DNA from: Rhizobiales bacterium IMCC20636 | GTDB taxonomy: Bacteria > Pseudomonadota > Alphaproteobacteria > Rhizobiales > GCA-2746425 | DNA length: 64,000 nucleotides | Reading direction: 5' to 3' | Assembly (NCBI GenBank): GCA_016865015.1 | Contig: CP018226.1 | Location: 3,069,001-3,133,000, forward strand | Program-made: the position numbers and the translations under genes | The notes under the pieces: model-generated | What the model saw: the letters and a program-made list of their open reading frames with translations, nothing else | Databases searched by the model: none | What the model was told of the DNA's origin: nothing | Shown here: one piece after another, positions 12,199 through 33,623 of the stretch | Layout of the letters: every line of letters begins with the position of its first letter | Position numbering within the stretch: position 1 is the first letter of the stretch

Positions 12199-12217
12199 TC
12201 AGATCATTCCCGACATG

Positions 12218-12252: not shown

Positions 12253-12272
12253 CTCCGTTCGTTTTCCGCAGG

Positions 12273-13424: not shown

Positions 13425-13440
13425 AAGTCTCTCCCGTTGG

Positions 13441-13458
13441 ATAGGGGTGATCCCCTAT
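13441..13458. promoter_or_regulatory. Palindrome in the leader of the ABC-importer operon
   Basis: ATAGGGG-TGAT-CCCCTAT, a perfect palindrome with 7-base arms, lies 17 bases upstream of the binding-protein start codon, just before its GGGAGAG ribosome binding site. It could be a repressor site or a leader hairpin. No T-run follows. Confidence 0.45.
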
Positions 13459-13677
13459 TGGTTTTTTGCTGCGTTCATTTCGCTGTTATGCCTGTTGTAA
13501 ACGGCTTGCATGCATTTCAGCAAGGCAGCGAAGCATTTCCTGTCTTATGACTATGATATCAATCACTTGTTGGGAAGGCTTCATTCTCAGAATCTGATTC
13601 AGAATCGAGCCGACAGTCCATAACTCTTGTAAGCAGCACGCCGCCCAGGCTCTGGCCTTTGGCGAAAGAGCAGTGTC

Positions 13678-13706
13678 AACCGCAACGGCCTTTGGCGGTT
13701 GCGGTT
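13678..13706 (-). terminator. Hairpin downstream of the xyl operon
   Basis: AACCGCAAC (13678-13686) pairs with GTTGCGGTT (13698-13706), extended inward by further pairs. It lies 18 bases after the stop of the oxidoreductase gene. There is no good T-run on the minus strand, so it may be only part of a termination signal. Confidence 0.4.
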
Positions 13707-13724
13707 AACACAGCGGAGATCGTT

Positions 13725-14870
13725 TTAAGCCGGGATGTCAGTCCAGGCGGAATCGGCTTCACTTGATTCCACACAGGCCACGATGAAGGCCACACCATCA
13801 ACCCCGTCATTCACGGTTGGGAAGTGGACGGCCTTGTCGGCGGACTGATTGTTGCGGAAGGCAATGATGGCAGCAGCAGCTTCGCTGTAGATATTGGCAA
13901 AGCCTTCCAGATAGCCTTCGGGATGTCCGGCTGGAACGCGGGTCATGCGTTCGGCTTCCGGGCCCATGGTTGGCCCGCCACGTGTCAGGATGCGCGGTGG
14001 CTCACCAAACGGCGTGTAGACCATCCGGTTGGGGTTTTCCTGTTCCCAGGACAGCCCGCCCTTAGTTCCATAGATCCGCAGTTTCAAACCATTTTCATTG
14101 CCAGGAGCAACCTGACTGGCCCAAATCATGCCTTTTGCACCGTTTTCATAGCGCAGCATGATATGAATATTGTCGTCCAGATCCCGGTCGGGCACAAAGG
14201 TCGTCAGGTCCGCCGCAAGCTTTTGCGCTTTGAGCCCGGACACATAGCCCGCCAGATGGTAGGCGTGTGTCCCAATATCTCCCACACAACCGCCAATTCC
14301 GGATTGTTTCGGGTCGGTGCGCCAGGCTGCCTGTTTCTGGCCAGTTCCTTCAAGCGCCTCTGTCAGCCAGTCCTGCGCATATTCGGCCTGAATGATCTGG
14401 ATTTTCCCAAGATCACCATTGGCGACCATGGCTCTGGCATGGCGGATCAACGGATAGCCTGAATAATTGTGTGTCAGAACAAACAATTTGCCGCTTGTCT
14501 CCACCAGCTTTGCCAGCTCCCTGGCATCTTCAAGACTGGTGGTCATCGGCTTGTCGCAGATCACATGAATGCCAGCTTCCAGAAATGCTTTTGCGACGGG
14601 GAAATGCATGTGATTGGGCGTCACGATCGCAACGGCTTCAATGCCATCAGCGCGGGCACTTTCAGCCTTTGCCATTTCAGCATAATCGCCATAGGCGCGC
14701 TCTGGATCCACGCCCAGTTCGGCGGCTGATGCCTTCGACTTGTCCGCAGTTGACGAAAACGCGCCCGCGACCAGTTCAAACTGATCGTCCATACGGGCTG
14801 CTATGCGGTGAACAGCGCCGATGAAGGCACCCTGCCCGCCACCAACCATGCCATATTTGATTTTACCCAT
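13725..14870 (-). CDS. Gfo/Idh/MocA-family oxidoreductase
   Basis: 381 residues. N-terminal Rossmann fold with G-M-V-G-G-G-x-G (residues 7-14), the CDKPM stretch that marks the active-site Lys of this family, and a C-terminal alpha/beta domain with GDIGTHAYHL carrying the likely catalytic Asp and His. These NAD(P)-dependent enzymes oxidise or reduce sugars, inositols or their lactones. It is the last gene of an operon with xylB and xylA (9 bases after xylA), so a pentose or related sugar is the likely substrate. Confidence 0.85.
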   Translation of the reverse strand: MGKIKYGMVGGGQGAFIGAVHRIAARMDDQFELVAGAFSSTADKSKASAAELGVDPERAYGDYAEMAKAESARADGIEAVAIVTPNHMHFPVAKAFLEAGIHVICDKPMTTSLEDARELAKLVETSGKLFVLTHNYSGYPLIRHARAMVANGDLGKIQIIQAEYAQDWLTEALEGTGQKQAAWRTDPKQSGIGGCVGDIGTHAYHLAGYVSGLKAQKLAADLTTFVPDRDLDDNIHIMLRYENGAKGMIWASQVAPGNENGLKLRIYGTKGGLSWEQENPNRMVYTPFGEPPRILTRGGPTMGPEAERMTRVPAGHPEGYLEGFANIYSEAAAAIIAFRNNQSADKAVHFPTVNDGVDGVAFIVACVESSEADSAWTDIPA

Positions 14871-14879
14871 GAGACCCTC

Positions 14880-16190
14880 TTACACGTATCTGTTGACGAT
14901 GTTTTCCAGATATTCCTGGCGTCCCGATTTTGGTTCGGGATTGATGCCATCAGCATGAACCCAGCCTGCAATGTCTTCCAGAGAATGGGTTCCATCGAGC
15001 ATTTTCTGTGCTTCCGGATGGCTCCAGCCAGCGTAGCGATTTTCAACAAACGCATCCAGCACGCCATCTTCAAGCATGGCAGCACCAGCTTTCAATGAAC
15101 GCGCCAAAACATCGATACCGCCAATATGTGAGACGATCAAATCTGCCGGATCAATCGATTGACGACGCAGCTTGCTGTCAAAATTGAAGCCACCGGAGGT
15201 CAGGCCGCCGCCCTTCAGGATGTAATAGAGTGCCAATGCCATTTCCGGCACATTGTTGGGGAACTGATCGGTATCCCAGCCGGACTGGTAATCGTTGCGA
15301 TTGGCATCGACAGATCCGAAAATTCCCAGTGCCATGGCCGTACAGACTTCATGTTCGAAAGAATGGTTGGCGAGAACCGCGTGGCCAACTTCAATGTTGA
15401 CCTTCACTTCATCTTCCAGGCCATGGGCTTTCAACAGGCCATAGACCGTTGCCACATCATAATCATATTGATGTTTGGTCGGTTCCTGCGGTTTTGGCTC
15501 TATCAGAATCGCGCCCTTGAAACCGATTTTGTGTTTGTAATCAACGACCATGCTCAAGAAGCGGCCAAGCTGATTCAACTCGCGCTTCATGTCTGTATTG
15601 AGCACAGTCTCGTAGCCTTCACGGCCACCCCACAGAACATAGTTTGCACCACCAAGCTGGTGGGTCACATCCATTGCATGCTTTACTTGCGCGGCTGCAT
15701 AGCCGAACACAGCGGGATCAGGATTGGTGGCTCCGCCCGCCATGAAGCGCTTGTTTGAGAACAGATTTGCCGTGCCCCAAAGCAGTCGGGTTTTCGATGT
15801 CTCCATCTTGGCCGCAAATATGTCTGCAATCTCGCTGACATTGCGGTTGCTCTCTGCCAGCGTTTCGCCTTCCGGAGCGATGTCGCGGTCATGGAAACAG
15901 AAGAATGGAGCATCGAGAATATCGAACATCTCAAACGCCACATCTGCCTTCAGGCGGGCCCCTTCCATGGTTTCACCAAACCATGGACGGTCGAGTGTCT
16001 GCCCGCCAAAGGGGTCACTGCCGGGCCAGCAAAAGCTGTGCCAATAGGCGATGGCCACCCGCAGATGATCTTCCATGGATTTGCCCATAACAATCTCGCC
16101 GGGATTGTAATGGCGATAGGCAAACTCGTTGTCGCTATCAGGGCCTTCATATTTGATGGTCGGTATGTCGCCAAAAAATCCGGTGCTCAT
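14880..16190 (-). CDS. xylA: Xylose isomerase
   Basis: 436 residues, the class II (long) xylose isomerase length. [12 protein letters not shown] carries catalytic His100 and Asp103, GGREGYE and [13 protein letters not shown] hold metal ligands, and NIEVGHA and GSVDANR are conserved. It interconverts D-xylose and D-xylulose in the cytoplasm. It follows xylB by 16 bases and precedes an oxidoreductase gene by 9, all on the minus strand, so the three are an operon. Confidence 0.93.
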
Positions 16191-16206
16191 GTGTTGTTCC
16201 TCACCC

Positions 16207-17670
16207 TTAAATTAATGGTTTGAGCGCTGGATACAGCGCTTGATAGGTTTGATATTTTTCCTGATAGGCTGCTGTCAGAGCTGTCTTTGGCGAAATGGTT
16301 TCGACAATGCGCGGCTCACTGCAAATCTCTGCCGGGTTTGCGCCGGTTGCAGCCGTCAGTCCCAGACGTGCAGCTCCGAAGCCACCACCAAAATCTCCCG
16401 CTTCAGGTACCTTCAGTTCAATATTCATGGCTGTCGCCAGAATCTCCAGCAACACCTTGCTGCGCGCACCGCCGCCCGCCACAAGCGCGCTGTCGATGTT
16501 TGAACCGGCAGCAGACAGGACGCGCAGGCTGTCACAGAAGGCAAAGGCGATGCCTTCCAGAACCATCTGCGTCAAAACTATCTTGTCCGTGCTGTGATCA
16601 ATACCGATGAAAGCGCCGCGTGCGGCCGCATCATTATGCGGTGTGCGCTCGCCTGACAGGTAAGGCAGGAACAGACCGCGTGCCGGGCCATTCAATGGGC
16701 CATCCAAAGCTGCGGTCAAGTCCGGTGCTGATGTGCCCGTGATATCTGACAGCCAGGTCAGGCTGTCCATCGCCGACAGGATAACGCCCATTTGATGCCA
16801 GGTATCAGGGATCGCATGGCAGAAGGCATGGACTGCGCCTTCAGTGTTGGGCGAAAAACGGTCATTGCAAATGAACAAGACGCCGGATGTGCCCAGAGAT
16901 ACGAAGGCAGACCCCGGCACCACTGTGCCCAGGCCACAAGCCGAGGCAGCATTGTCACCACCGCCGCCAGCAACAGCAACTTTTCCGTCCAAACCCCACT
17001 CAGCGCATAGTTCTTCGCGCAAATTGCCTGATGTCGCACTGCCTTCAACCAATCCTGGCATGTGGTCCATGGTCAGACCGGTGGCCTGCAGCAATTCAGG
17101 CGACCATTTGCGGTTAGCAACGTCCAGCCACATCGTGCCAGCGGCATCCGACATGTCCGAGACGAACTCACCTGTCAGCCAAAGGCGGACATAATCCTTT
17201 GGCAGAAGCACCTTGTCAGTCGCTTCGAAAATGTCTGGTTCGTGCTTTGCCACCCAGGCCAGTTTTGGCGCGGTAAATCCCGCCATGACAATGTTTCCGG
17301 CAATGCCACGAAAATCCGCTTTGGCTTCCAACTCGGTGCATTCCAGTGCCGAACGTCCATCATTCCATAAAATACAGGGCCGCAACGGCTTGTGGTCTTT
17401 CCCAATCAGCGTCGCGCCGTGCATGTGGCCCGACAGGCCAATGCCCTTCAGACGCGACAGGGCTTCCGGTTGAACAGATTTGACCTTTGCCATTGCCTGT
17501 CTGGTTGCGGAAATCCAGCTATCCGGATCCTGTTCAGACCAACCTGGCTGAGGACGTGTCACATCCATGGTGGCGCTTTCGCTGGCCAAAATGGACTGGT
17601 CCGCATCGATCAGCACAGCTTTGACAGCTGACGTTCCAATGTCCAGACCAAGGTATGTTGGTGTGCTCAC
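16207..17670 (-). CDS. xylB: Xylulokinase
   Basis: 487 residues of the FGGY kinase family. [15 protein letters not shown] at residues 8-22 is the phosphate-1 region, GLSGHMHG is a XylB-type substrate motif, and [14 protein letters not shown] near residue 398 is the adenosine region. It phosphorylates D-xylulose to xylulose 5-phosphate, taking the xylA product into the pentose phosphate pathway. The chosen start is GTG at 17670, preceded at four bases by GGGGGG; a TTG four codons upstream is the alternative. First gene of the xylB-xylA-oxidoreductase operon. Confidence 0.9.
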
Positions 17671-17795
17671 ATTTCCCCCCAATTTTCTTTAGCTGCGCTG
17701 TTATCAGTCAGCGGTGACGGCGTCTTTGACAGGCCTTTTATTGAGACCGACCGTATTGGGCTGACGGTCCAATATCAATTGCAGACAGTCTCATC

Positions 17796-17819
17796 GTCTT
17801 GATGGTTTTCCATCAAGAC
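17796..17819 (-). terminator. Perfect hairpin downstream of glycerate kinase
   Basis: GTCTTGATGG-TTTT-CCATCAAGAC: perfect 10-base arms, 4-base loop, 15 bases after the stop of the glycerate 2-kinase gene. No T-run follows on the minus strand, so it is a likely but not typical terminator. Confidence 0.5.
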
Positions 17820-17834
17820 AGACCGCAGATATTA

Positions 17835-19115
17835 TCAGACAGGATCAATCAAAATAACACGTAAATCATTGACATTAGTCAATGTCGGACCGGTCATGAC
17901 CAGTCGGTTGATCGCCTCAAAAAAGCTGTAACTGTCAAAGGCAGCCAGATCATTGATGGCTCGGCGACCGGCCTGTCGTCCCAGCGCGATATCACCCGGC
18001 AGATAAAATGCCCCGGCATTATCCTGTGTGCCGTCAATTCCATCTGTGTCACATGCCAGCGCCGACACACCCGGCATGTCATTCACCGCATGTGCAAAAC
18101 CAAGCAGGAAGGCTGTGTTGCGCCCGCCGCGACCTGCCGGACCATTGACGGAAACGGTGGTTTCGCCACCTGATATCAGCGCAAGAGGCGGCTGTGCCGG
18201 TTGACCGTAAGTGCGAACCTGTTTGGCAATCCCCGCCATCACAAGACCTACATCCTGCGCTTCGCCTTCAATCGCATCGCCAAGAATCATGGGCGTGTAG
18301 CCCGCCTGCCGTGCGACTTCCGCCGCAGCTTCCAGAGACTCCTGTGGCTTTGCAACCAGAACGCTTTCCGACTGGGCAAAACAGGCAGACGCCGGATCCG
18401 GCGTCTGCGCACCGTTCTGCTCGAGAAAACTCGCAATGTGCTGTGGCAAATTGATCTTGTAGCGCGCCAGAATATCGATCGCGTCAGCAACGGTGGACGG
18501 GTCTGCGATTGTTGGCCCCGAGGCGATGGTTCCGAAATCATCTCCCGGCACGTCGGAGATGCCCAAAGTGACCAATCTGGCCGGATAGGCGGCCGCTGCC
18601 AGGCGTCCGCCCTTGATTGCGGAGAGGTGCTTGCGAACGACATTCATTTCATGAATTGCAGCACCCGATTTTAACAGCGCCTTGTTGATCGCCTGCTTGT
18701 CGTCGAGGGTCAGGCCCTTCCCCGGCAGTGGCAACAGTGATGAACCGCCGCCAGAGACCAGAAACAGAACCAGATCATTTTCACCAGCCGATTCAGCCAA
18801 TGCCAGAATACGCTCAGCCGCAGCCAGACCATTGGCATCGGGAACCGGGTGATTGGCTTCAACAATTTCAATATGCTGGCACGGAACGGCCGCACCATAT
18901 TGAGTGACCACCAGCCCGCTCGGGACAAGCCCCCAGGATTGAAGAATCGTGTCTTCAGCAGCCTTCGCCATCGCAGCCGAGGCTTTGCCGGCGCCAAGAA
19001 TTATGACGCGACCCTGAGGCTTTTCAGGCAAGTGCGGTGGCACGACCAATGCTGGGTTTGCCGCGGCAACTGCAGCATCAAACATGTTTTTCAGAAGCGC
19101 TTCAGCAGACATCAT
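17835..19115 (-). CDS. Glycerate 2-kinase (MOFRL family)
   Basis: 426 residues. The N-terminal DUF4147 domain has [12 protein letters not shown] and [15 protein letters not shown], and the C-terminal MOFRL domain carries SGGETTV and the acidic [18 protein letters not shown] stretch (quoted: [15 protein letters not shown]). The family phosphorylates D-glycerate to 2-phosphoglycerate, and older annotation calls it hydroxypyruvate reductase (TtuD/GckA). The ATG at 19115 (a second ATG follows directly) overlaps the stop codon of the L,D-transpeptidase gene by 4 bases, so translation may be coupled although the functions appear unrelated. Confidence 0.87.
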
Positions 19116-19921: not shown

Positions 19922-19937
19922 TTGTCCAAATGGTAAA
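19922..19937 (+). promoter_or_regulatory. Candidate RutR-type operator before preT
   Basis: TTGTCCAAATGGTAAA agrees with the RutR consensus TTGACCA-NN-TGGTCAA at 12 of 14 specified positions. It lies 24 bases before the preT start codon, where a bound repressor would block initiation. A stronger site is at 23855-23870. Confidence 0.5.
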
Positions 19938-21322: not shown

Positions 21323-22654
21323 ATGGCAGATCTTCGAAGCAACTTTGTTGGCATCAAGTCCCCTAACCCGTTCTGGCTCGCCTCCGCGCCACCAACCGAC
21401 AAAGCCTATAATGTCGTGCGTGCTTTCAAAGCAGGCTGGGGCGGTGTTGTCTGGAAGACGCTCGGGGAAGATCCCCCCATCGTCAACGTCAATGGACCGC
21501 GCTATGGCGCGATGTGGTCCAATGACCGGCGTCTGATCGGCCTCAACAATATCGAGTTGATTACCGACCGACCGCTGGACGTCAATCTGCGCGAGATCAA
21601 GGAAGTAAAACGCGACTGGCCGGATCGGGCGATGGTCGTATCGCTGATGGTCCCCTGTGAAGAGCAGAACTGGATCAATATTCTGAAGCAGGTGGAAGAC
21701 ACCGAAGCTGATGGCATTGAACTGAATTTTGGCTGCCCACACGGCATGTCGGAACGCGGCATGGGTGCAGCAGTCGGTCAGGTCCCGGAATATGTCGAAA
21801 TGGTCACGCGCTGGTGCAAGCAACACACCAATATGCCGGTGATCGTGAAACTGACACCCAATATCTCGGACATCCGCGTTCCGGCCCGTGCCGCCAATGC
21901 AGGCGGAGCTGATGCGGTGTCACTGATCAATACCATCACCTCGATCATGAGCGTGAATCTGGATACTTTTGCACCCGAACCAACCATCGATGGCAAGGGC
22001 ACTCATGGCGGATATTGCGGACCTGCGGTGAAACCAATCGCACTGAATATGGTGTCGAAAATCGCAACAGATGCTGAAACAGCCAAACTGCCGATTTCCG
22101 GCATAGGCGGCGTCACCACATGGCGTGATGCTGTGGAATATCTGGCTCTGGGCTGCGGCAATGTGCAGGTCTGCACCGCTGCCATGACTTATGGCTTCAA
22201 GATTGTTGAAGACATGATTGATGGCCTGTCGGAATATATGGATGACAAGGGCTTCACCGATGTCGAAGAGATCGTTGGCAAGGCCGTGCCGAATGTAACC
22301 GATTGGCAGTATCTCAATCTCAACCACATCACCAAAGCCGTCATTGATCAGGATATGTGTATCAAATGTGGCCGGTGTCACATTGCCTGTGAGGACACTT
22401 CGCATCAGGCGATCACCTCGATGCTCGATGGCGAGCGCCATTATGAGGTGATTGACGAAGAATGCGTTGGCTGTAATCTGTGTGTGAATGTCTGTCCGGT
22501 CGAAAACTGCATCACCATGGAAGAGATGACTGAAGGCGTTGACCCGCGCACCGGCACGCCGATCTCTGATGAGTATGCCAACTGGACAACCCATGTGAAC
22601 AATCCCTCCTCGCCGAATTTCATTCCGGCCAAGTCGGTTGAACCAGCGGTGTAA
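21323..22654 (+). CDS. preA: Dihydropyrimidine dehydrogenase (NAD+) subunit PreA
   Basis: 443 residues. An FMN barrel of the dihydroorotate-dehydrogenase type (residues 1-320) with active-site region NFGCPHGMSERGMG, then two [4Fe-4S] clusters: Cys346, Cys349, Cys352, Cys356 and Cys381, Cys384, Cys387, Cys391 (CVGCNLCVNVC). It reduces the pyrimidine while PreT supplies electrons from NADH. Start ATG at 21323, 11 bases after preT, with GGGAG upstream. The last codons are four bases from the VOC gene start. Confidence 0.94.
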   Translation: MADLRSNFVGIKSPNPFWLASAPPTDKAYNVVRAFKAGWGGVVWKTLGEDPPIVNVNGPRYGAMWSNDRRLIGLNNIELITDRPLDVNLREIKEVKRDWPDRAMVVSLMVPCEEQNWINILKQVEDTEADGIELNFGCPHGMSERGMGAAVGQVPEYVEMVTRWCKQHTNMPVIVKLTPNISDIRVPARAANAGGADAVSLINTITSIMSVNLDTFAPEPTIDGKGTHGGYCGPAVKPIALNMVSKIATDAETAKLPISGIGGVTTWRDAVEYLALGCGNVQVCTAAMTYGFKIVEDMIDGLSEYMDDKGFTDVEEIVGKAVPNVTDWQYLNLNHITKAVIDQDMCIKCGRCHIACEDTSHQAITSMLDGERHYEVIDEECVGCNLCVNVCPVENCITMEEMTEGVDPRTGTPISDEYANWTTHVNNPSSPNFIPAKSVEPAV

Positions 22655-22658
22655 TCTG

Positions 22659-23030
22659 ATGTCCCGGCAAGTGGTAACCGGCATAGGCGGCGTTTTCTTT
22701 CGTGCGAAAGATCCTGCCGCACTGGCCGGTTGGTACCGGGAGCATCTGGGTGTCGACGAGGTTCCCAAGGATTATGACGCGACACCTTGGCACACCGCAG
22801 CGGGGACGACAGTGTTCGCCCCCTTTGCCGCCGACACTGACTATTTTGGCCGCCCTGAGCAAAGCTGGATGATCAATTTTCGCGTCGCGGATATGGATGC
22901 CATGGTGGCACAATTGGAAGCGGCCGGGATTGCGGTGAAACGCGATCCAGAAGCCTATCCGAATGGACGGTTTGCGCGCCTGCATGATCCTGAGGGCAAC
23001 CCGGTGGAGTTGTGGGAACCCAAGGAATAG
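22659..23030 (+). CDS. VOC-superfamily (glyoxalase/bleomycin-resistance fold) protein
   Basis: 123 residues, the single-domain VOC size. It starts SRQVVTGIGGVFFRAKDPAAL and has DPEGNPVELWEP at the C-terminus with the family's metal-ligand Glu. VOC proteins include glyoxalase I, dioxygenases and epimerases; the reaction here is unknown. It begins four bases after the preA stop, so it belongs to the pyrimidine operon, and is convergent with the RutR-like gene. A role in detoxifying a semialdehyde from the pathway is only a guess. Confidence 0.82.
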   Translation: MSRQVVTGIGGVFFRAKDPAALAGWYREHLGVDEVPKDYDATPWHTAAGTTVFAPFAADTDYFGRPEQSWMINFRVADMDAMVAQLEAAGIAVKRDPEAYPNGRFARLHDPEGNPVELWEPKE

Positions 23031-23036
23031 GTCCTT

Positions 23037-23720
23037 CTATTTACGCGGCAACAGGCCCTGCATCAATATTGTTTCAAGCGTGTCAGCTGCGTCATCATAG
23101 GTCTTGTCGCGCGCATCCTGCCCCAGCAGCGCCGTCACCTGAACTTCGAAATCGGCGTAATGCTGAGTCGTGGCCCATAGGAAGAATATCAGGTGATAGG
23201 GGTCAACCCGATTGAGTTGACCGGTGTCACACCAGTGGCGGATTACAATTGCCTTTTGTTCGACCAGTTCTTTCAAATGGCCCTGCAGCACCGCGCCAAG
23301 CAGCGGCGCGCCATTGAGAATTTCATTGGCAAACAGGCGCGAATCTTCCGGGCGTTCTTTCGACATGGATAGTTTGGCGCGCATATAATTGAGAATTTGT
23401 TCGGCAGGATCGCCATCCGGATCAAGTTGCTCCAGCGGTTCCAGCCAGCGCTCCAGCACAAATTCCAGCACCGCGACGTAAAGCGTTTTCTTGCTTTTGA
23501 AGTAATATAAAAGATTTGGTTTGGTCATGCCGGCCGCTTTAGCCAGTTCATCCACTGTCGCGCCACGAAAGCCGGTTTTGGCAAAGACGCTCAGCGCACC
23601 ATCCAGGATGCGCTCCTGATTGCGAATCTGAATGCGGGTGGCCTTGCGCGGCTTGACGCCATCTTCCTGACCCTGGCCCTGCAATTGAACCGGTCGTGAT
23701 CGTGAATCACCCAAATCCAT
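23037..23720 (-). CDS. rutR: RutR-like TetR-family repressor of pyrimidine catabolism
   Basis: 227 residues. N-terminal TetR helix-turn-helix at about 50-77 (FRGATVDELAKAAGMTKPNL), then a ligand domain with the RutR-family pattern TTQHYADFEVQV near residue 191. E. coli RutR binds uracil or thymine and represses pyrimidine genes. It is embedded in the pyrimidine locus, and a near-consensus RutR operator lies 135 bases upstream of its start. The start is set at the ATG 23720; readings up to 55 codons longer run into the operator region and look noncoding. Confidence 0.87.
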   Translation of the reverse strand: MDLGDSRSRPVQLQGQGQEDGVKPRKATRIQIRNQERILDGALSVFAKTGFRGATVDELAKAAGMTKPNLLYYFKSKKTLYVAVLEFVLERWLEPLEQLDPDGDPAEQILNYMRAKLSMSKERPEDSRLFANEILNGAPLLGAVLQGHLKELVEQKAIVIRHWCDTGQLNRVDPYHLIFFLWATTQHYADFEVQVTALLGQDARDKTYDDAADTLETILMQGLLPRK

Positions 23721-23854: not shown

Positions 23855-23870
23855 TTGACCATTTGGTCAG
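23855..23870. promoter_or_regulatory. RutR-type operator
   Basis: TTGACCATTTGGTCAG matches the E. coli RutR consensus as I recall it, TTGACCA-NN-TGGTCAA, at 13 of 14 specified positions. It is centred between the divergent rutR-like gene and the aminotransferase gene (135 and 138 bases from their start codons), so it can control both. This supports the RutR assignment and a uracil/thymine-responsive regulon. Confidence 0.8.
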
Positions 23871-24007
23871 AAATTCCGGTTTCACCTAACGGCGTGGCGG
23901 CCATATTGTCAAATTGACAATTGCCATATGCAGATGAGTGGCCAATCTCTTATGAGGTTTTCCGGATTGTCCTGGCCGGTTATGTAGATTTGGGAATGCG
24001 AGACACC

Positions 24008-25336
24008 ATGAACATACAAACACCCAGCAAGAATAACAGCCTTGAAGCCTTCTGGATGCCGTTTACGGCGAACCGGCAATTCAAAGAAAATCCGCGCATG
24101 TTCGTGGGTGCCAAGGACATGCATTACGTGACCGCAGATGGACGTAATGTGCTGGACGGCACGGCGGGTCTGTGGTGTGTGAATGCGGGCCATTGCCGCC
24201 CGAAAATCACCGAGGCCATTCAAAAGCAGGCAGCAGAACTTGATTATGCGCCTGCGTTCCAGATGGGACATCCCAAAGCATTTGAGCTGGCGGAGCGTCT
24301 GGTTGACTACATGCCCGATGATATCAATCACGTGCTCTATACCAATTCCGGGTCTGAATCTGTCGAAACCGCTCTGAAAGTTGCGCTTGCTTATCACCGC
24401 GCCAAGGGAGACGGCTCGCGGTTCCGCCTGATTGGCCGTGAGCGCGGCTATCATGGCGTGAATTTCGGGGGCATTTCAGTCGGGGGCATTGTTTCGAACC
24501 GCAAGATGTTTGGCACATTGCTCACCGGGGTCGACCACCTACCCCACACCCACGATATCGAGAAAAATGCCTTCACGCGCGGCATTCCGGAACATGGCGC
24601 GAATCTGGCAGATGAACTGGAGCGGATTTGCACCCTGCACGATCCATCCACGATTGCAGCAGTCATCGTTGAGCCAGTAGCCGGATCAACCGGCGTTCTG
24701 ATACCGCCGCAAGGCTATCTGCAACGCCTGCGCGATATTTGCGACAAGCACGGCATTCTGCTGATTTTTGATGAAGTGATCACCGGTTTCGGACGACTTG
24801 GCTCGCCCTTTGCGGTTGAGCATTTTGGTGTGACGCCAGATATTGTCATCACAGCAAAGGGCCTGACCAGCGGCGTCATCCCGATGGGCGCGGTGTTTGT
24901 GAAAGACCATATTTATGACGCCTTCATGCAAGGCCCGCCGCATATGATCGAATTCTTCCATGGCTATACCTATTCGGGCAATCCCATCGCATCGGCAGCC
25001 GCTCTCGGCGCGCTTGATACTTATGAGGAAGAAGGGCTGTTCCAGAAAGGTCAGGAACTGGGGCAATATTGGGAGGATGGGCTGCATTCCCTGAAAGGCC
25101 TGCCACATGTGATTGATATCAGGAATATCGGTCTGATTGGTGCGATTGAACTGGAACCGATTGCCGGGGAGCCGACAAAACGCGCATTCTCCTGCTTCCT
25201 GGAAGCTTATGAGCGCAATCTTCTGATCCGCACCACAGGCGACATCATTGCCCTGTCACCGCCCCTGATTGTTGAAAAAACCCATATTGATGAAATCATC
25301 GACACGTTGTCTGGCGTGTTGAAAGACGCAGCGTAG
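24008..25336 (+). CDS. Omega-amino acid:pyruvate aminotransferase
   Basis: 442 residues, class III PLP-dependent aminotransferase. Lys284 in ITAKGLTSG binds PLP; SGSESVETALK, YHGVNFGGISVGG and DEVITGFGR are conserved. The sequence start, with FWMPFTANRQFK, is typical of beta-alanine:pyruvate aminotransferases, which turn beta-alanine (from uracil) or beta-aminoisobutyrate (from thymine) into the semialdehydes. It lies 16 bases before mmsA, which takes the next step. Start at the ATG 24008; an in-frame ATG at 23996 is the alternative. Confidence 0.88.
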   Translation: MNIQTPSKNNSLEAFWMPFTANRQFKENPRMFVGAKDMHYVTADGRNVLDGTAGLWCVNAGHCRPKITEAIQKQAAELDYAPAFQMGHPKAFELAERLVDYMPDDINHVLYTNSGSESVETALKVALAYHRAKGDGSRFRLIGRERGYHGVNFGGISVGGIVSNRKMFGTLLTGVDHLPHTHDIEKNAFTRGIPEHGANLADELERICTLHDPSTIAAVIVEPVAGSTGVLIPPQGYLQRLRDICDKHGILLIFDEVITGFGRLGSPFAVEHFGVTPDIVITAKGLTSGVIPMGAVFVKDHIYDAFMQGPPHMIEFFHGYTYSGNPIASAAALGALDTYEEEGLFQKGQELGQYWEDGLHSLKGLPHVIDIRNIGLIGAIELEPIAGEPTKRAFSCFLEAYERNLLIRTTGDIIALSPPLIVEKTHIDEIIDTLSGVLKDAA

Positions 25337-25352: not shown

Positions 25353-26846
25353 ATGGCACGCGTAGATAATATTATTGGTGGCAAATCCCACGCCAGTCAG
25401 AGTGGCCGCACAATGGCGCTCTACAACCCGGCAACCGGGGAGCAGAATGGCGAAGTCGGTCTTTCAACTGCGTCGGAACTGGATATGGCTGTCGCCGCTG
25501 CGAAAGCGGCACTGCCGGGCTGGGCAAATACACCGCCATTGAAGCGCGCTGCGATCATGTTCAAGGTCAAATATCTGATTGAACAGAATTTTGACCGTAT
25601 TGCCGACGCCATTTCGGCAGAACACGGCAAGACCCATGATGATGCTCTTGGTGAAATACAGCGTGGGCTTGAAGTGGTGGATTTTGCCTGTGGCATTCCT
25701 CACCTTCTGAAGGGTGAATTTTCGCGCAATGTAGGCCCGTCAATCGATAGTTATTCTGATCGTCAGCCGCTGGGTATCGTCGCTGGTATTACCCCTTTCA
25801 ACTTTCCAGCCATGGTGCCTTTGTGGATGTACCCAATGGCCATTGCCTGCGGGAATTGCTTCATTCTGAAACCTTCGGAAAAAGACCCGACCGCTGCCAA
25901 TATGGTGGCTGAATTCTTCATGGAAGCCGGGCTGCCTGCCGGTGTTCTGAATGTGGTGCATGGTGACAAGGAAGTGGTGGATGCCATTCTGGTTCACAAG
26001 GATATCAAAGCTGTATCCTTTGTCGGCTCAACCCCGATTGCCGAATATGTCTATCACACCGGCACGGCAAACAATAAGCGTGTGCAGGCTCTTGGTGGTG
26101 CCAAGAACCACATGGTAATCATGCCGGATGCCGACATCGACAAGGCTGTTGATGCGCTGATGGGGTCTGGCTACGGCTCTGCCGGAGAGCGCTGCATGGC
26201 GATTTCTGTGGCGGTGCCGGTGGGTGATGCCGTTGCTGACAAGCTGGTGGAAGCTCTGAAGCCACGCATTGAATCGCTCAAGATCGGTCCGGCGACGGAT
26301 GCGCAGGCTGATATGGGACCGCTGGTAACCCAGCAGCACAAGGACAAGGTTGTCGGGTATATTGATGCTGGCGAAAAAGAAGGCGCGGAACTGGTTGTCG
26401 ACGGTCGTGGTCTGACCCTGCAGGGTTACGAGAATGGCTATTTTGTCGGCGGCACCCTGTTTGATCGCGTCACAACTGATATGTCGATCTACAAGGAAGA
26501 GATTTTCGGGCCGGTTCTGTCTGTTGTGCGTGCGGACAGTTTTGAAACCGCAACCAAGATGATCAACGATCATGAATTCGGCAATGGCACGGCAATCTTT
26601 ACCCGCGACGGTGATGCTGCGCGCAGCTTTGCTGACAGTATTGAAGTCGGCATGGTCGGTATCAATGTACCGATCCCGGTTCCCGTGGCCTACCACTCCT
26701 TTGGTGGCTGGAAACGGTCTTTGTTCGGCGATCATTCGATTTATGGGCCGGAAGGCATCCGCTTCTATACCCGCCTGAAGACGGTCACCAGCCGTTGGCC
26801 GGGCGGCATCAAGGATGGAGCAGTCTTTACCTTCCCAACCATGTAA
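25353..26846 (+). CDS. mmsA: Methylmalonate-semialdehyde dehydrogenase, CoA-acylating
   Basis: 497 residues. Aldehyde dehydrogenase fold with ITPFNFPAMVPLWM near residue 146 and active-site Cys281 in SAGERCMA, the MmsA type rather than the general ALDH type. It converts methylmalonate semialdehyde and malonate semialdehyde with CoA and NAD to propionyl-CoA or acetyl-CoA. In the reductive pyrimidine pathway it takes the product of the upstream aminotransferase. Start ATG 25353, 16 bases after that gene; AAGGA upstream. Confidence 0.92.
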   Translation: MARVDNIIGGKSHASQSGRTMALYNPATGEQNGEVGLSTASELDMAVAAAKAALPGWANTPPLKRAAIMFKVKYLIEQNFDRIADAISAEHGKTHDDALGEIQRGLEVVDFACGIPHLLKGEFSRNVGPSIDSYSDRQPLGIVAGITPFNFPAMVPLWMYPMAIACGNCFILKPSEKDPTAANMVAEFFMEAGLPAGVLNVVHGDKEVVDAILVHKDIKAVSFVGSTPIAEYVYHTGTANNKRVQALGGAKNHMVIMPDADIDKAVDALMGSGYGSAGERCMAISVAVPVGDAVADKLVEALKPRIESLKIGPATDAQADMGPLVTQQHKDKVVGYIDAGEKEGAELVVDGRGLTLQGYENGYFVGGTLFDRVTTDMSIYKEEIFGPVLSVVRADSFETATKMINDHEFGNGTAIFTRDGDAARSFADSIEVGMVGINVPIPVPVAYHSFGGWKRSLFGDHSIYGPEGIRFYTRLKTVTSRWPGGIKDGAVFTFPTM

Positions 26847-26875: not shown

Positions 26876-28126
26876 ATGGCAGCACCAAGTGACAATCTGA
26901 AGATCAATGGCGACCGACTCTGGGACATGTTGATGGAGATGGCCAAAATCGGTCCCGGCATTGCTGGTGGCAACAATCGGCAGACGGTGACTGATGAAGA
27001 TGGTGAAGGCCGTATCCTGTTCCATAAATGGTGTATCGAAGCAGGCCTGACCATGGGTCTGGACCAGATGGGCAACATGTTCATGCGCCGGGAAGGTACG
27101 GACCCGGATGCGCTGCCGGTCTATGTCGGCTCGCATCTGGATACGCAGCCGACCGGTGGGAAATATGACGGCGTGCTGGGCGTGCTGGCCGGTCTGGAGA
27201 TCGTCCGCACCCTCAATGATCTGGATTTGAAAACCAAACATCCGATCGTGGTTACTAACTGGACAAATGAAGAAGGCACACGCTTTGCGCCCGCCATGCT
27301 GGCATCAGGCGTGTTTGCCGGGATGCACACCCAGGACTGGGCCTATGAGCGTACGGATGCAGAGGGAAAAACCTTCGGAGCAGAGCTGAAGCGCATAGGC
27401 TGGCGCGGTGAAGAAGAGGTCGGTGCCCGTAAAATGCACGCCTTTTTCGAGTTGCATATTGAACAGGGGCCCATTCTGGAAGCCGAAGGCAAGGATATCG
27501 GCGTTGTGACCCACGGTCAGGGCCTTTCCTGGACGCAGATCACAATCACAGGCAAAGACAGCCACACCGGTTCAACCCCGATGCCGATGCGCAAGAATGC
27601 CGGCCTTGGCATGGCGAAAGTCCTGCAATTGGTTGATGATATCGCCTGGTCGCACAAGCCCGATGCAGTGGGTGCGGCTGGCCATATTGATGTCTATCCA
27701 AACAGCCGCAATGTGATCCCCGGCAAGGTGGTATTCACCGTGGATTTGCGCTCACCTCAACTGGCTGTCATCGAAGATATGGAAGCGCGGCTGAAAGACG
27801 GCGCGCAGAAAATCTGCGATGAGATGGGTCTGGGGGTTGCGTTTGAGAAAGTCGGCGGGTTTGATCCGGTCACTTTTGACGAAACCTGCGTGAGCGCAGT
27901 GCGCAATGCCGCCGAGCGCCTTGGCTACAGCCACCGCGATCTGATTTCAGGCGCCGGTCACGATGCGTGCTGGATCAACAGCACGGCGCCAACAGCCATG
28001 GTAATGTGCCCGTGCGTTGACGGCCTGTCCCACAATGAAGCGGAAGAAATTTCGCCGGAATGGGCCAAAGCCGGAGCCGATGTATTGTTTCACGCCGTTG
28101 TCGAGACGGCAGAGATTGTTGAATAA
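26876..28126 (+). CDS. N-carbamoyl-amino-acid hydrolase (beta-ureidopropionase type)
   Basis: 416 residues of the M20/M28-like amidohydrolase group with allantoate amidohydrolase and N-carbamoyl-L-amino acid hydrolase (HyuC/AmaB). SHLDTQPTGGKYDGVLG has His87 and Asp98 as metal ligands; TNEEGTRFAPA gives the catalytic Glu pair; GAGHDACW is conserved late. Between the aminotransferase pair and dihydropyrimidinase it most likely hydrolyses N-carbamoyl-beta-alanine and N-carbamoyl-beta-aminoisobutyrate. It starts 30 bases after mmsA; an earlier in-frame start would overlap mmsA. Confidence 0.87.
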   Translation: MAAPSDNLKINGDRLWDMLMEMAKIGPGIAGGNNRQTVTDEDGEGRILFHKWCIEAGLTMGLDQMGNMFMRREGTDPDALPVYVGSHLDTQPTGGKYDGVLGVLAGLEIVRTLNDLDLKTKHPIVVTNWTNEEGTRFAPAMLASGVFAGMHTQDWAYERTDAEGKTFGAELKRIGWRGEEEVGARKMHAFFELHIEQGPILEAEGKDIGVVTHGQGLSWTQITITGKDSHTGSTPMPMRKNAGLGMAKVLQLVDDIAWSHKPDAVGAAGHIDVYPNSRNVIPGKVVFTVDLRSPQLAVIEDMEARLKDGAQKICDEMGLGVAFEKVGGFDPVTFDETCVSAVRNAAERLGYSHRDLISGAGHDACWINSTAPTAMVMCPCVDGLSHNEAEEISPEWAKAGADVLFHAVVETAEIVE

Positions 28127-28166: not shown

Positions 28167-29615
28167 ATGAGCAAAGTTATCAAAGGCGGAACAATTGTTG
28201 CCGCCGACCGGACCTACAAGGCTGACGTTCTGATTGATGGCGAAACCATCATTGCGGTTGGCAGCGATCTTGAGGGTGACGAAATCATTGATGCATCCGG
28301 CTGCTATCTGATGCCGGGCGGGATTGATCCGCATACCCATCTGGAAATGCCATTTATGGGCACACACTCCTCAGATGATTTTGACACAGGCACGGCAGCC
28401 GCTCTTGCTGGCGGAACAACAATGGTGGTGGATTTCTGTCTTCCGGACCCCTCCGGTGGTCTGATGGACCCCCTGCAACAATGGTATCAAAAAGCAGGCA
28501 AAGCCCGCACTGACTATTCGTTCCACATGGCGATTACCGGCTGGAGCGAACAAATTTTCAACGACATGCCGAAGGTCGTGGCCGAGGGCATCAACACGTT
28601 CAAACACTTCATGGCTTACAAGGGCGCATTGATGGTGGATGATGATGAGATGTTTGCCTCCTTCTCGCGCTGTGCCGAGATTGGTGCAATGCCATTGGTT
28701 CACGCAGAGAACGGTGATGTGGTTGCCCAAATCCAACAGCGACTTCTGGCAGAAGGCAATAATGGCCCGGAAGCCCATGGCTATTCCCGTCCGCCTGAAG
28801 TGGAAGGCGAAGCAGCCAACCGCGCCATCATGATTGCCGATCAGGCAGGCGTTCCGCTCTACATCGTCCACGTGTCCTGCGAGCAGGCCCATGAAGCCAT
28901 TCGCCGGGCGCGACAGAAAGGCATGCGGGTCTATGGCGAGCCATTGATCCAGCATCTGACTTTGGATGAAAGCGAATATTTGAATGAAGACTGGGATTAC
29001 GCGGCACGCCGTGTGATGTCACCACCGTTCCGCGACAAGCTGAATCAGGATGGCTTGTGGGCTGGGCTGGCCTCCGGCAGCCTGCAGGTGGTTGCCACTG
29101 ACCATTGTGCCTTCACAACCGAACAAAAGCGTTTTGGCGTTGGTGATTTCACCAAGATTCCAAATGGCACTGGCGGTCTGGAAGACAGAATGCCGATTCT
29201 CTGGACACGCGGCGTGCGCACTGGCCGACTGACGATGAATGAGTTTGTTGCCGTAACATCGACCAATATTGCACGCATTCTCAACATGTATCCCAAGAAG
29301 GGCGCGATCATGCCCGGCGCTGACGCCGACATTGTGGTCTGGGACCCTGAAGCGTCCAAAACCATTCAGGCCAGCACGCAGAAATCGGCTATTGATTACA
29401 ATGTGTTTGAAGGCTTTGAACTGACGGGTTTGCCGGTGATGACATTCAACCGGGGGGACTTGGTGTTCAAGGAAGGTGACGTAACTGGCGAAACCGGTCG
29501 CGGACGCTTCATCAAGCGTGAGGCCAATCCGCCGGTCAATCAGGCCCTGTCCACATGGAAAGAGCTGACAAATCCTCGCAAGGTGGTGCGCAGCGGCATT
29601 CCTGCCGGCGTTTGA
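28167..29615 (+). CDS. hydA: Dihydropyrimidinase (hydantoinase)
   Basis: 482 residues of the cyclic amidohydrolase superfamily. The metal site has PHTHLEM (His56, His58), the carboxylated Lys152 in HFMAYKGALM, later His in LVHAENGD and YIVHVSCEQA, and Asp in VVATDHCAF. It hydrolyses dihydrouracil and dihydrothymine to N-carbamoyl-beta-amino acids, the second step of the reductive pathway. GAGGAG lies nine bases before the ATG at 28167. Hydantoin hydrolysis is a shared side activity of the family. Confidence 0.92.
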   Translation: MSKVIKGGTIVAADRTYKADVLIDGETIIAVGSDLEGDEIIDASGCYLMPGGIDPHTHLEMPFMGTHSSDDFDTGTAAALAGGTTMVVDFCLPDPSGGLMDPLQQWYQKAGKARTDYSFHMAITGWSEQIFNDMPKVVAEGINTFKHFMAYKGALMVDDDEMFASFSRCAEIGAMPLVHAENGDVVAQIQQRLLAEGNNGPEAHGYSRPPEVEGEAANRAIMIADQAGVPLYIVHVSCEQAHEAIRRARQKGMRVYGEPLIQHLTLDESEYLNEDWDYAARRVMSPPFRDKLNQDGLWAGLASGSLQVVATDHCAFTTEQKRFGVGDFTKIPNGTGGLEDRMPILWTRGVRTGRLTMNEFVAVTSTNIARILNMYPKKGAIMPGADADIVVWDPEASKTIQASTQKSAIDYNVFEGFELTGLPVMTFNRGDLVFKEGDVTGETGRGRFIKREANPPVNQALSTWKELTNPRKVVRSGIPAGV

Positions 29616-29659: not shown

Positions 29660-30475
29660 ATGACTGAGCCTTCTTTGAAGGAACCCGATAGCAGCGAAAA
29701 ATCTGTGATTCAGATTGATGATCTGTCGCTGACATTTGAAACGAATGATGGCCCGGTGCATGCCCTGTCACATATCGATCTGTCGATTGCGGAAGGTGAG
29801 TTTGTCTCGCTGATCGGCCCGTCGGGCTGCGGCAAGACCACCCTGCTGCGCGTTATCGCTGATCTGGAACGTGCAACCGGGGGCACGATATCGGTCAATG
29901 GTGTCTCGCCAGAAGAGGCACGGTTGCACCGTGCCTATGGCTATGTGTTCCAGGCTGCAGCGCTGTATCCGTGGCGGACCATCGATCGCAATATTGCGCT
30001 GCCACTTGAAATCATGGGCCTTTCAAAGAAGGAACAGAACAGCCGGATTGCGAAAAATCTTGATCTGGTGAACCTGACAGGATTTGAGAAGAAGTTCCCC
30101 TGGCAATTGTCCGGCGGTATGCAGCAACGGGCTTCAATTGCGCGTGCGCTGGCTGTTGAACCGCATCTGCTTCTGATGGACGAGCCATTCGGTGCGCTGG
30201 ACGAGATTGTTCGGGATCATCTGAATGAACAACTGCTGAAGCTGTGGGCAAAGACGAACAAGACCGTGGTGTTTGTGACCCACTCGATCCCGGAAGCTGT
30301 GTTCCTCTCAAGCAAGATTGTGGTGATGTCTCCCCGGCCCGGACGTGTGCATGATGTGATTGATTGCGGGTTGCCGCGCGACCGCACGCTGGATGTTCGC
30401 GAAACACCGCAATTTCTGGAAATTGCGCACCGCGTCCGCGAAGGCTTGAAAGCGGGACATTCCTATGACGACTGA
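29660..30475 (+). CDS. ABC transporter ATP-binding protein, nitrate/sulfonate/taurine type
   Basis: 271 residues. Walker A GPSGCGKTT at 53-61, Q-loop YVFQAAALYP, signature LSGGMQQRASIARAL, Walker B LLMDEPFGALDE, and switch VTHSIPEAVFLS. This is the SsuB/TauB/ThiZ-type ATPase. It follows dihydropyrimidinase by 44 bases and overlaps the first permease gene by 11, forming an importer with the two permeases and binding protein downstream. The likely cargo is a pyrimidine or related cyclic ureide, from context only. Confidence 0.88.
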   Translation: MTEPSLKEPDSSEKSVIQIDDLSLTFETNDGPVHALSHIDLSIAEGEFVSLIGPSGCGKTTLLRVIADLERATGGTISVNGVSPEEARLHRAYGYVFQAAALYPWRTIDRNIALPLEIMGLSKKEQNSRIAKNLDLVNLTGFEKKFPWQLSGGMQQRASIARALAVEPHLLLMDEPFGALDEIVRDHLNEQLLKLWAKTNKTVVFVTHSIPEAVFLSSKIVVMSPRPGRVHDVIDCGLPRDRTLDVRETPQFLEIAHRVREGLKAGHSYDD

Positions 30476-31406
30476 TGCCATGGCGTCTCCCAGTTCCACA
30501 GTGCGCCCCGGATTACTCAGCCGGGCGCTCTCGGGAACTTTTCTGCCGGTGCTCGTGGTTGTCTTGGGGATCATCGCCATCTGGTACATTGCTGCCATCA
30601 GCATGAATTCCACCTTTCAACGCAGCCTTGATGCCCGTGCCGAGGCAACTCCCACGACGATTGAATTTATTGAATCGACATTGAATCAGGAAAGACCCGT
30701 CCTGCCCTCGCCGCATCAGGTGGCGGAAAATCTCTGGGACACGGTCTTCAATAAGAAGATCAGCTCCAAACGCAGTCTGGTCTATCATGCGGGTGTGACG
30801 CTGGCCCCTACTCTTCTGGGTTTTTTGATGGGAACAGCGCTGGGCATACTTCTGGCAACCATCATCGTTCATGTGCTGTCGATGGAAAAGAGCCTGATGC
30901 CATGGATCATCACGTCCCAGACAATTCCCATTCTGGCCATTGCACCGATGGTGATTCTGGTTCTGGACGCTGTTGGTATTCGCGGATTGCTGCCCAAGGC
31001 GCTGATTTCCATGTATTTGTCGTTCTTCCCGATCACCGTGGGTATGGTCAAGGGTTTGCGGTCTCCGGACAAAATGCATCTGGATTTGCTACGCACCTAT
31101 AATGCCAGTTCCTGGCAAACATTCTGGAAGCTGCGCTGGCCATCATCCCTGCCCTATCTCTTCACCAGCATGAAGGTGGCGATTGCCATATCACTGATTG
31201 GCGCCATTATCGCGGAACTGCCAACAGGCGCAGTCGCGGGCCTCGGTGCGCGCCTGCTTTCCGGATCTTATTACGGGCAGACCGTTCTGATCTGGTCTGC
31301 GCTTCTGATGGCTGCCTTTTGTGCGGCGATGCTGGTGGCACTTGTTGGCGTGGCGGACAAATGGGTCCGGCGGCGCATGGGTGAAAAAGTGGAGGCTGGC
31401 TCATGA
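30465..31406 (+). CDS. ABC transporter permease, first
   Basis: 313 residues. One N-terminal membrane segment (about 23-47), a loop of roughly 70 residues (48-115), then five or six membrane segments with the BPD_transp_1 EAA-type loop near YNASSWQTFWKLRWPSSLPY (a 20-residue stretch at about 210-229). Family: permeases of nitrate/sulfonate/taurine/thiamine-precursor importers. It overlaps the ATPase gene upstream and the second permease gene downstream by 4 bases (ATGA). Confidence 0.85.
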   Translation: MTTDAMASPSSTVRPGLLSRALSGTFLPVLVVVLGIIAIWYIAAISMNSTFQRSLDARAEATPTTIEFIESTLNQERPVLPSPHQVAENLWDTVFNKKISSKRSLVYHAGVTLAPTLLGFLMGTALGILLATIIVHVLSMEKSLMPWIITSQTIPILAIAPMVILVLDAVGIRGLLPKALISMYLSFFPITVGMVKGLRSPDKMHLDLLRTYNASSWQTFWKLRWPSSLPYLFTSMKVAIAISLIGAIIAELPTGAVAGLGARLLSGSYYGQTVLIWSALLMAAFCAAMLVALVGVADKWVRRRMGEKVEAGS

Positions 31407-32560
31407 GCGATATAACCGCCTCATCCAAAGCGCCTGGCCTGCCTGAAGAATGGCGCGAACCGCTGATCTGGCTGGCAATCCTGTGCACGATCACAGCTCT
31501 GTTTCTGCCTCTGGCATTCCTGGCCGGTGATGATGGAATTGCAAAGCCGCTGAGGTCTCCCTCAGGTCTGTGCGTGATGCTGATTGCCGGAGCGATCGCT
31601 TCCGTTCGTTTCCAGAGCTGGCTAGGCGATCTCCTGCTTTTTCTGTCATCCCATCTGACAGCTGGCATCCTGTTGTTCATGGTTCCCGCCTATAGCGGTG
31701 CTGCCGGATGGGGCTTCTGGTTGCTGCTGATCAGCAGTTGGTTGCTGGCCTGGCAATTGGTTTCGCGTTTATCGGCGCATCGTCTGGAAGGTCGGCTGCA
31801 GACGCTGCTTGATCTTGCAATTCCCATTATCTTTGGTCTCTGGCTGCTGCTGCTTTGGGAAATGGTAGTGGTGGGGGCTGGTGTGCCTTTTGTTCTGCTG
31901 CCACCCCCGAGCCAGATTGGTGCGCGCATTGCTGAATCCCTGCCGCTGCTGTGGGCTGATTTCCAGCAGACTTTTCTGCTGGGTGTCCTGCCCGGCTACG
32001 TGATTGGCTGCAGTGCCGGCTTTGTCGTGGCCGTCCTGGTAGATAAGGTTCCGTTTTTGCAACGCGGGCTCCTGCCGGTTGGCAATATGGCATCCGCCTT
32101 GCCGATTATCGGCGTTGCACCGATCATGGTGATGTGGTTCGGCTTTGGACCGGGGTCCAAAATCGCCGTTGTCGTGATCATGATCTTTTTCCCGATGCTG
32201 GTGAACACCGTGGCTGGTTTTGCCGCGGCCGGGAATATGGAAAAGGATTTGATGCGCACCTATGCTGCTTCTTACTGGCAAACGCTTTTGAAACTGCGTC
32301 TGCCAAATGCCATGCCTTTCATTTTCAACGCTTTGAAAATCAATTCAACGCTGGCACTGATTGGCGCAATTGTTGCTGAATTCTTCGGTTCTCCCACCGT
32401 GGGGATGGGTTTTCGCATCAGTACGGAGTTTGGCCGCTTGAATACAGATTTGGTCTGGGCCACCATTGCGGTAGCAGCTTTGGCCGGATCAACCTTCTAT
32501 GGTTTGATTGCGCTTATCGAGCGCAGGATTACCTTCTGGCATCCCTCGGCACGTGGCTGA
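31403..32560 (+). CDS. ABC transporter permease, second, with extended N-terminus
   Basis: 385 residues, about 120 longer than usual for the family. The first 135 residues hold four or so membrane segments not part of the permease core; the core (140-380) has the EAA-type loop at YAASYWQTLLKLRLPNAMPF. The two different permeases would form a heterodimer. The extra N-terminal segments could bind a partner or alter the channel. It starts in the ATGA overlap with the previous gene. Confidence 0.84.
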   Translation: MSDITASSKAPGLPEEWREPLIWLAILCTITALFLPLAFLAGDDGIAKPLRSPSGLCVMLIAGAIASVRFQSWLGDLLLFLSSHLTAGILLFMVPAYSGAAGWGFWLLLISSWLLAWQLVSRLSAHRLEGRLQTLLDLAIPIIFGLWLLLLWEMVVVGAGVPFVLLPPPSQIGARIAESLPLLWADFQQTFLLGVLPGYVIGCSAGFVVAVLVDKVPFLQRGLLPVGNMASALPIIGVAPIMVMWFGFGPGSKIAVVVIMIFFPMLVNTVAGFAAAGNMEKDLMRTYAASYWQTLLKLRLPNAMPFIFNALKINSTLALIGAIVAEFFGSPTVGMGFRISTEFGRLNTDLVWATIAVAALAGSTFYGLIALIERRITFWHPSARG

Positions 32561-32618: not shown

Positions 32619-33623
32619 ATGAAGACACTTCTTAAAGGGGCCATGGCTCTTGGAGTTGCAACAGGCATGAGCCTTGCAGCGTCCGCCGGTTTTGCAGCCG
32701 ACCCTGTGACACTGCAATTGCAGTGGGTGACGCAGGCACAGTTTGCAGGCTACTACGTCGCACTGGAAAACGGCTATTATTCAGACTTGGATCTGGATGT
32801 AACCATCAAGCCAGGTGCACCCGATCTCTCTCCACCGCAGGTTCTGGCTGGCGGCGGCGCTGATGTGATGCTGAACTGGATGCCATCTGCTATGGCAGCG
32901 CGCGAACGTGGCGTGCCAGTTGTCAATATTGCACAACCTTTCAAACGCTCCGGTCTGATGCTGACCTGCCTGAAGGAAACCGGAATCACAAGCCCGGAAG
33001 ATTTCAAAGGCAAGACCATTGGTGTCTGGTTCTTCGGCAATGAATATCCGTTCCTGGCCTGGATGTCCCAGCTCGGCATTTCAACGGATGGCGGCCCTGA
33101 TGGCGTCACTGTTCTGAAACAGGGTTTCAATGTCGACCCGATCATCCAGAAACAGGCTGATTGTATTTCCACCATGACCTACAACGAATATGGTCAGGTG
33201 CTGGATGCAGGCATTTCGGAAGACGAACTGGTTGTCTTCAAATATGAAGACCAGGGCGTTTCCACTTTGGAAGACGGCATCTATGTGCTCGAAGACAACC
33301 TTGAAGACCCTGCCTTCGTTGACAAGATGGCACGGTTTGTATCCGCTTCCATGAAAGGTTGGGCATGGGCCGGAGAAAACCCGGACGCAGCAGCTGAGAT
33401 CGTTCTGGAATATGATGAGACCGGTGCACAAACCGAAAAACATCAAAAACGGATGATGGGCGAAATTGCCAAATTGCTGGGTGATGACGGCGGCAAGCTG
33501 GACCCTGCTGATTACCAGCGCACAATCGACACACTCCTGGCCGGTGGTTCTGACCCCGTGATTTCCAAGGAGCCAGTCGGTGGCTGGACACATGTTGTCA
33601 TCGACAAAGCCATGGCGATGTAA
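32619..33623 (+). CDS. ABC transporter binding protein, NMT1/THI5 type
   Basis: 334 residues. Signal peptide with cleavage near GFA-A (residues 25-27), then the NMT1/THI5-like fold: TLQLQWVTQAQFAGYYVALE early, GKTIGVWFFGNE in the middle. This fold binds pyrimidine-like ligands such as thiamine precursors, and also sulfonates and nitrate. Adjacent to a full pyrimidine-degradation operon, a pyrimidine or dihydropyrimidine is a reasonable cargo. AAGGAG precedes the ATG at 32619. A strong terminator follows. Confidence 0.88.
   Translation: MKTLLKGAMALGVATGMSLAASAGFAADPVTLQLQWVTQAQFAGYYVALENGYYSDLDLDVTIKPGAPDLSPPQVLAGGGADVMLNWMPSAMAARERGVPVVNIAQPFKRSGLMLTCLKETGITSPEDFKGKTIGVWFFGNEYPFLAWMSQLGISTDGGPDGVTVLKQGFNVDPIIQKQADCISTMTYNEYGQVLDAGISEDELVVFKYEDQGVSTLEDGIYVLEDNLEDPAFVDKMARFVSASMKGWAWAGENPDAAAEIVLEYDETGAQTEKHQKRMMGEIAKLLGDDGGKLDPADYQRTIDTLLAGGSDPVISKEPVGGWTHVVIDKAMAM

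Follow-up and report, generated by a model that had tools for sequence, protein, structure and literature searches.

A predicted RutR-type operator in a reductive pyrimidine locus of a Rhizobiales bacterium, and paired boxes in loci with two RutR paralogs

How is reductive pyrimidine breakdown controlled in a locus that encodes a relative of the E. coli repressor RutR, and is the short palindrome beside the regulator gene its operator? These questions are raised by a 64,000-nucleotide stretch of the genome of Rhizobiales bacterium IMCC20636 (contig CP018226.1), referred to here as the window. An earlier note on this DNA described the palindrome and proposed that the repressor-operator pair of the oxidative Rut pathway here controls reductive enzymes. 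From sequence comparison, the 16-bp palindrome very probably serves as the main operator for the RutR/PydR-type TetR repressor encoded next to it, which would control the reductive pathway.

Gene content of the locus

The window contains the complete reductive uracil pathway, split over two gene runs (preT-preA-glyoxalase-fold gene, and aptA-mmsA-hyuC-hydA-ABC ATPase-two permeases-NMT1-like gene), in which the gaps between genes are small or absent. The features of the locus are as follows.

19922..19937, no strand: operator 2 (predicted, weaker), TTGTCCAAATGGTAAA, 24 bp ahead of the preT start codon
19962..21311, + strand: preT, NAD(P)-binding dihydropyrimidine dehydrogenase subunit (assigned by family and position beside preA)
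21323..22654, + strand: preA, NAD-dependent dihydropyrimidine dehydrogenase subunit (NF006183, 734.9 bits, over cut-off)
22659..23030, + strand: small glyoxalase-fold protein, last of the preT run (PF18029)
23037..23720, - strand: RutR/PydR-type TetR-family regulator, 227 aa, start codon assumed at 23720
23855..23870, no strand: operator 1 (predicted), TTGACCATTTGGTCAG, in the spacer between the divergent regulator gene and aptA
24008..25336, + strand: aptA, omega-aminotransferase, first of the downstream run (NF052567, over cut-off)
25353..26846, + strand: mmsA, CoA-acylating (methyl)malonate-semialdehyde dehydrogenase (TIGR01722, over cut-off)
26876..28126, + strand: hyuC, hydantoinase/carbamoylase-family amidase (TIGR01879 and NF006769, over cut-off)
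28167..29615, + strand: hydA, dihydropyrimidinase (TIGR02033, over cut-off)
29660..30475, + strand: ABC transporter ATPase
30465..31406, + strand: ABC transporter permease 1 (PF00528)
31403..32560, + strand: ABC transporter permease 2 (PF00528)
32619..33623, + strand: NMT1/THI5-like substrate-binding protein (PF09084)

The preT protein scored 347 bits with NF009410, under the cut-off of 516, and no PreT model was among the matches listed for it. The aptA product appears to be of the beta-alanine:pyruvate type, the hyuC product is probably an N-carbamoyl-beta-alanine hydrolase, and the ABC transporter with its NMT1/THI5-like protein may serve pyrimidine uptake. The neighbouring region 11266-19115 looks like a sugar catabolism locus: inspection of its translations by eye suggests genes for ABC transport and for proteins resembling xylose isomerase and xylulokinase, and a DUF4147/MOFRL protein is encoded there as well.

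The regulator cannot be assigned to control of rutA-G, since no RutA over the cut-off was found in its own genome (best E 1.4e-4). The flanking enzymes are those of the reductive pathway, and the association of a RutR-type regulator with this pathway, as proposed in the earlier note, is thereby supported in silico.

The regulator and its candidate operators

The regulator aligns with nearly full-length E. coli RutR (residues 27-227, PDB 6z1b/3loc, E ~1e-51) at 41% identity; its listed frame, P0001, carries one residue more in front than the assumed 227-aa start. It belongs to the TetR family by its PF00440 helix-turn-helix (52.8 bits, cut-off 24) and its PF08362 YcdC-like C-terminal domain (171 bits, cut-off 25), and falls short of both NCBIfam RutR equivalogs (TIGR03613, 236 bits vs a cut-off of 368; NF011584, 193.4 vs 230). 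An excerpt of PMC10891134 gives W77, Y97, W167, Q171 and Q179 as the residues that hold uracil in RutR, and K52 and K62 as lysines that contact DNA. All five uracil-contact residues are identical in the window regulator, and both lysines are kept. Of 212 RutR-like sequences aligned, 205 keep the same set of five. The recognition helix reads TKPNLLYY, in contrast with SKTNLLYY in E. coli RutR.

These comparisons bear on the nature of the inducer. The same regulator could bind the same box and yet respond mainly to a pathway intermediate, dihydrouracil or beta-alanine, instead of uracil or thymine. Identity of only 41% to E. coli RutR leaves room for such a change, and aptA-mmsA would serve beta-alanine breakdown too, but the retention of every reported uracil-holding residue argues against it, and we consider an intermediate as main inducer improbable. 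They also qualify the idea that the locus carries the same repressor as E. coli: a RutR homolog with a preserved pocket is present, whereas "the same repressor-operator pair" was too strong for a protein with this identity, missed cut-offs and an altered helix.

We scored candidate operators by mismatches at the 14 set positions of the 16-mer TTGACCANNTGGTCAA. Operator 1, TTGACCATTTGGTCAG, agrees with it at 13 of 14 positions, with one mismatch. The same 13 of 14 positions agree with TTGACCAnnTGGTCAA, taken here, as the earlier note implied, to be the consensus of the E. coli-type RutR operator. The near-consensus palindrome that had been described at 23855-23870 is therefore present, and its location midway between the two genes is confirmed, at ~135 bp from the assumed regulator start (23720) and 137 bp from the aptA start. 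The excerpt of PMC10891134 gives the RutR site only as a palindrome of ~16 bp.

A scan of the genome (4.79 Mb) found four palindromic places with at most one mismatch to the 16-mer, operator 1 among them, and none with 0 mismatches. At up to two mismatches there were 53 places, vs 32 for a reversed control pattern. Most of the weak matches are therefore noise, and the argument for an operator depends on position and conservation. This excess of noise is what would favor a chance palindrome; the scarcity of places with at most one mismatch and the conservation of the box, in the genus and far beyond, speak against one. A chance match was ruled out by this conservation together with the permuted controls described below, and we give it practically no weight. 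Within the genus, operator 1 is unchanged in five genomes (window included), apart from a variable base at one of the two central positions.

Of the three remaining strong matches in the genome, two fall within long open reading frames and the third is intergenic, with no pathway gene seen next to it; a wide genome regulon was rejected on these grounds. A second box beside operator 1 was likewise rejected, the next best match having 4 mismatches and lying 42 bp off. The promoter scan recognized no sigma-70-like promoter near operator 1 or operator 2. Between operator 1 and aptA lies a perfect odd palindrome, TTGTCAAATTGACAA (23906-23920), which is only partially conserved in the genus.

Operator 2, TTGTCCAAATGGTAAA, was absent from the earlier note. 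It is imperfect, with 2 mismatches, and is invariant in four aligned genus genomes (window included), within a longer invariant stretch. Because it precedes preT, both pathway operons carry a box. A further box-like match with 2 mismatches lies inside hyuC at 27060-27075; similar internal matches occur in the hyuC genes of L069, L070, L071 and L100, and are probably due to protein conservation.

We hypothesize that, without uracil, repressor dimers would occupy both boxes and switch off preT-preA and aptA-mmsA-hyuC-hydA-transporter, as well as the regulator's own gene. Binding of uracil (or thymine) would release the dimers, and uracil would then be converted to dihydrouracil, N-carbamoyl-beta-alanine, beta-alanine, malonate semialdehyde and finally acetyl-CoA.

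Occurrence of the box in reductive and Rut-pathway loci

Three overlapping genome samples were searched for RutR-like proteins. With a limit of E <= 1e-35, 136 of the 297 genomes from the order and 53 of the 385 from the class have a match; with E <= 1e-30, so do 124 of 398 from the phylum. From some of the listed matches we fetched 140 loci of the order and class and 40 more of the phylum; the sample is confined to listed matches, the loci are related to one another, and two genomes (G150 and G906) contribute two loci each, left unmerged. A scan of named genomes gave only two close relatives, both MAGs, and six weak TetR matches.

Of 141 loci including the window, 93 have a box with at most 2 mismatches in the 450 bp ahead of the regulator block, against a mean of 0.14 loci (maximum 4) for 100 permuted palindromes; no such box was found there in the remaining 48. 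Before preT, 48 loci out of 87 have one, compared with a permuted mean of 0.05 and a maximum of 1, and the other 39 have none. The palindrome could instead be read by another regulator, with the neighboring TetR controlling something else. Similar short palindromes are read by many DNA-binding proteins, which would suit this explanation, but the recurrence of the box upstream of the RutR-like gene, and its doubling mainly where the locus holds a second RutR paralog (see below), make it very unlikely.

With E. coli and the window, the 180 fetched loci make 182, of which 130 contain at least two reductive genes, 12 contain rutA (E. coli included), and 40 contain neither set within the stretch read. 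The earlier note had staked its proposal on the palindrome recurring in related loci, and it does recur: in 114 of the 130 reductive loci, a box of no more than 2 mismatches precedes the regulator, preT or both, a combined count without a permuted control of its own. The other 16 have a box at neither place.

The window and the E. coli rut locus share a homologous TetR regulator, the five uracil-contact residues, the consensus palindrome, and a regulator gene divergent from the pathway genes. They differ in the recognition helix and in the targets, which are predicted to be reductive pathway genes in the window and are those of the oxidative rut pathway in E. coli. The E. coli rut operator, TGGACTAAACGGTCAA, is itself 3 mismatches off the consensus. 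The E. coli-like letter T occurs in the helix of 22 regulator copies, and in 19 of these the upstream 350 bp show no box, even with 3 mismatches allowed. The suggestion that the regulator had kept its DNA code while the enzymes differ holds for the consensus, with the E. coli operator and the boxless T-helix copies as qualifications.

Six alphaproteobacterial loci have rutA next to rutR. Ahead of rutA, three of them (L101, L196 and L200) carry boxes of 1-2 mismatches; in the other three (L195, L199 and L201), only windows with at least 4 mismatches were found there. A scan of 17 RutA-matching loci with short flanks gave a box of 2 mismatches or fewer in 4 (L223, L225, L226 and L227). We had considered that RutR of Rut-pathway loci in the same order uses a different code, because the region upstream of rutR is boxless, yet this reflected the region chosen; the idea was set aside, and the picture remains mixed. 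As far as the predicted boxes indicate, the code is common in part to both enzyme sets, and the cleanest boxes are those of the reductive loci.

In the Rut loci L195, L199, L201, L289, L290, L291, L295 and L261, a spacing of 18-19 bp separates two of the three top-scoring windows before rutA; these box-like windows are weak, with 3 to 6 mismatches. Across eight Rut loci, a second weak window tends to stand 19 bp from the best one, with a mean of 8.1 mismatches vs 10.5 over the offsets tested. The 19-bp offset is only faint in single-regulator reductive loci (9.9 vs 10.6).

Regulator paralogs and paired boxes

The window represents the simple one-regulator form: its genome gave a single match to the regulator at E <= 1e-30, and no paralog B at E <= 1e-45. 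Outside the window, some loci encode two RutR paralogs, A and B. Paralog B has the helix PKANLHYY and also an intact uracil pocket; a regulator of this helix type lies near aptA-mmsA in L305, from another class of the phylum.

Counting only sequence upstream of the regulator, and with loci classed by the regulators in the fetched stretch, not in the whole genome, we searched for two boxes spaced 30-36 bp; such a pair, with actual spacings of 31-35 bp, is present in 21 of 27 loci with both paralogs (L072, L079, L081, L091, L096, L108, L111, L127, L128, L150, L154, L160-L162, L169, L173, L198, L307, L308, L311 and L312), vs 1 of 149 loci with one regulator, A or B. The pair is retained where the A and B genes are separate (L079, L308/L311 and L312). 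The two-box idea came from the first 40 loci; among those fetched after it arose, the pair occurs in 16 of 21 two-regulator and 1 of 114 one-regulator loci. Fisher's test for pair against paralog number gives p 8e-21, a value that ignores relatedness. A tree of the A copies requires at least 14 changes for the B partner and 12 for the pair, against 28.9 and 21.1 for shuffled labels. Because the changes are fewer than with shuffled labels, partner and pair follow clades, yet both arose or were lost repeatedly.

Six two-regulator loci (L102, L151, L204, L206, L313 and L314) have no pair at 30-36 bp. L176 (G236) has a pair despite one regulator, and no B copy reached E <= 1e-45 in its genome. In the single-regulator Rut loci L196 and L200, a pair with 34-bp spacing stands ahead of rutA, a region that the count upstream of the regulator does not take in. 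L115 (G202), classed as one-regulator, has a B copy ~7 kb away, outside the fetched stretch, as revealed by the B-type search, which covered the order. The fetched loci do not include G175 or eight f44-family genomes in which B-type matches are clear, and several genomes of the class and phylum hold further RutR-like matches outside the fetched places.

In four loci, all from one genus (L136, L138, L156 and L158), both paralogs are fused in an open frame of 428-437 codons, with the B half first. None of the four has a box pair; three have one box, and one has a short upstream stretch. It is quite possible, as a tentative model, that one regulator goes with one box, that a second paralog goes with a second box 31-35 bp away so that two dimers form one switch, and that the fusion (~430 residues) may form an internal heterodimer that reads one box. 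If true, RutR-type control in alphaproteobacteria would follow a countable operator grammar.

RutR-type control of the reductive pathway is already in print and is not new. The title of Hidese et al. (2012, J Biochem 152:341), as cited in an excerpt of PMC7332683, names Pseudomonas putida PydR, and judged by that title, PydR is RutR-like and represses the gene for dihydropyrimidine dehydrogenase in the reductive pathway, which is also what is proposed for the window. The likeness is drawn from the title; in the window, too, a RutR-like protein is encoded with dihydropyrimidine dehydrogenase genes that have a candidate operator before them. Leyn et al. (2016, PMC5343134, in excerpt) describe predicted RutR "pyrimidine catabolism" regulons in RegPrecise for 68 genomes of 13 taxonomic groups, spanning several classes of Proteobacteria with taxon-specific motif changes, and the window would share with these regulons RutR-type control of pyrimidine catabolism. 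Because the PydR title and these regulons precede it, the window locus adds to a known arrangement.

What the locus contributes is a well-supported case with two predicted operators and a full gene set for reductive uracil breakdown, in which a single family of uracil-sensing regulators, with a single DNA code, appears to have been attached to two enzyme solutions. Operator sites would thereby be predictable in many Alphaproteobacteria, and the association of two paralogs with two boxes offers a testable model of how a regulator and its operators may multiply together.
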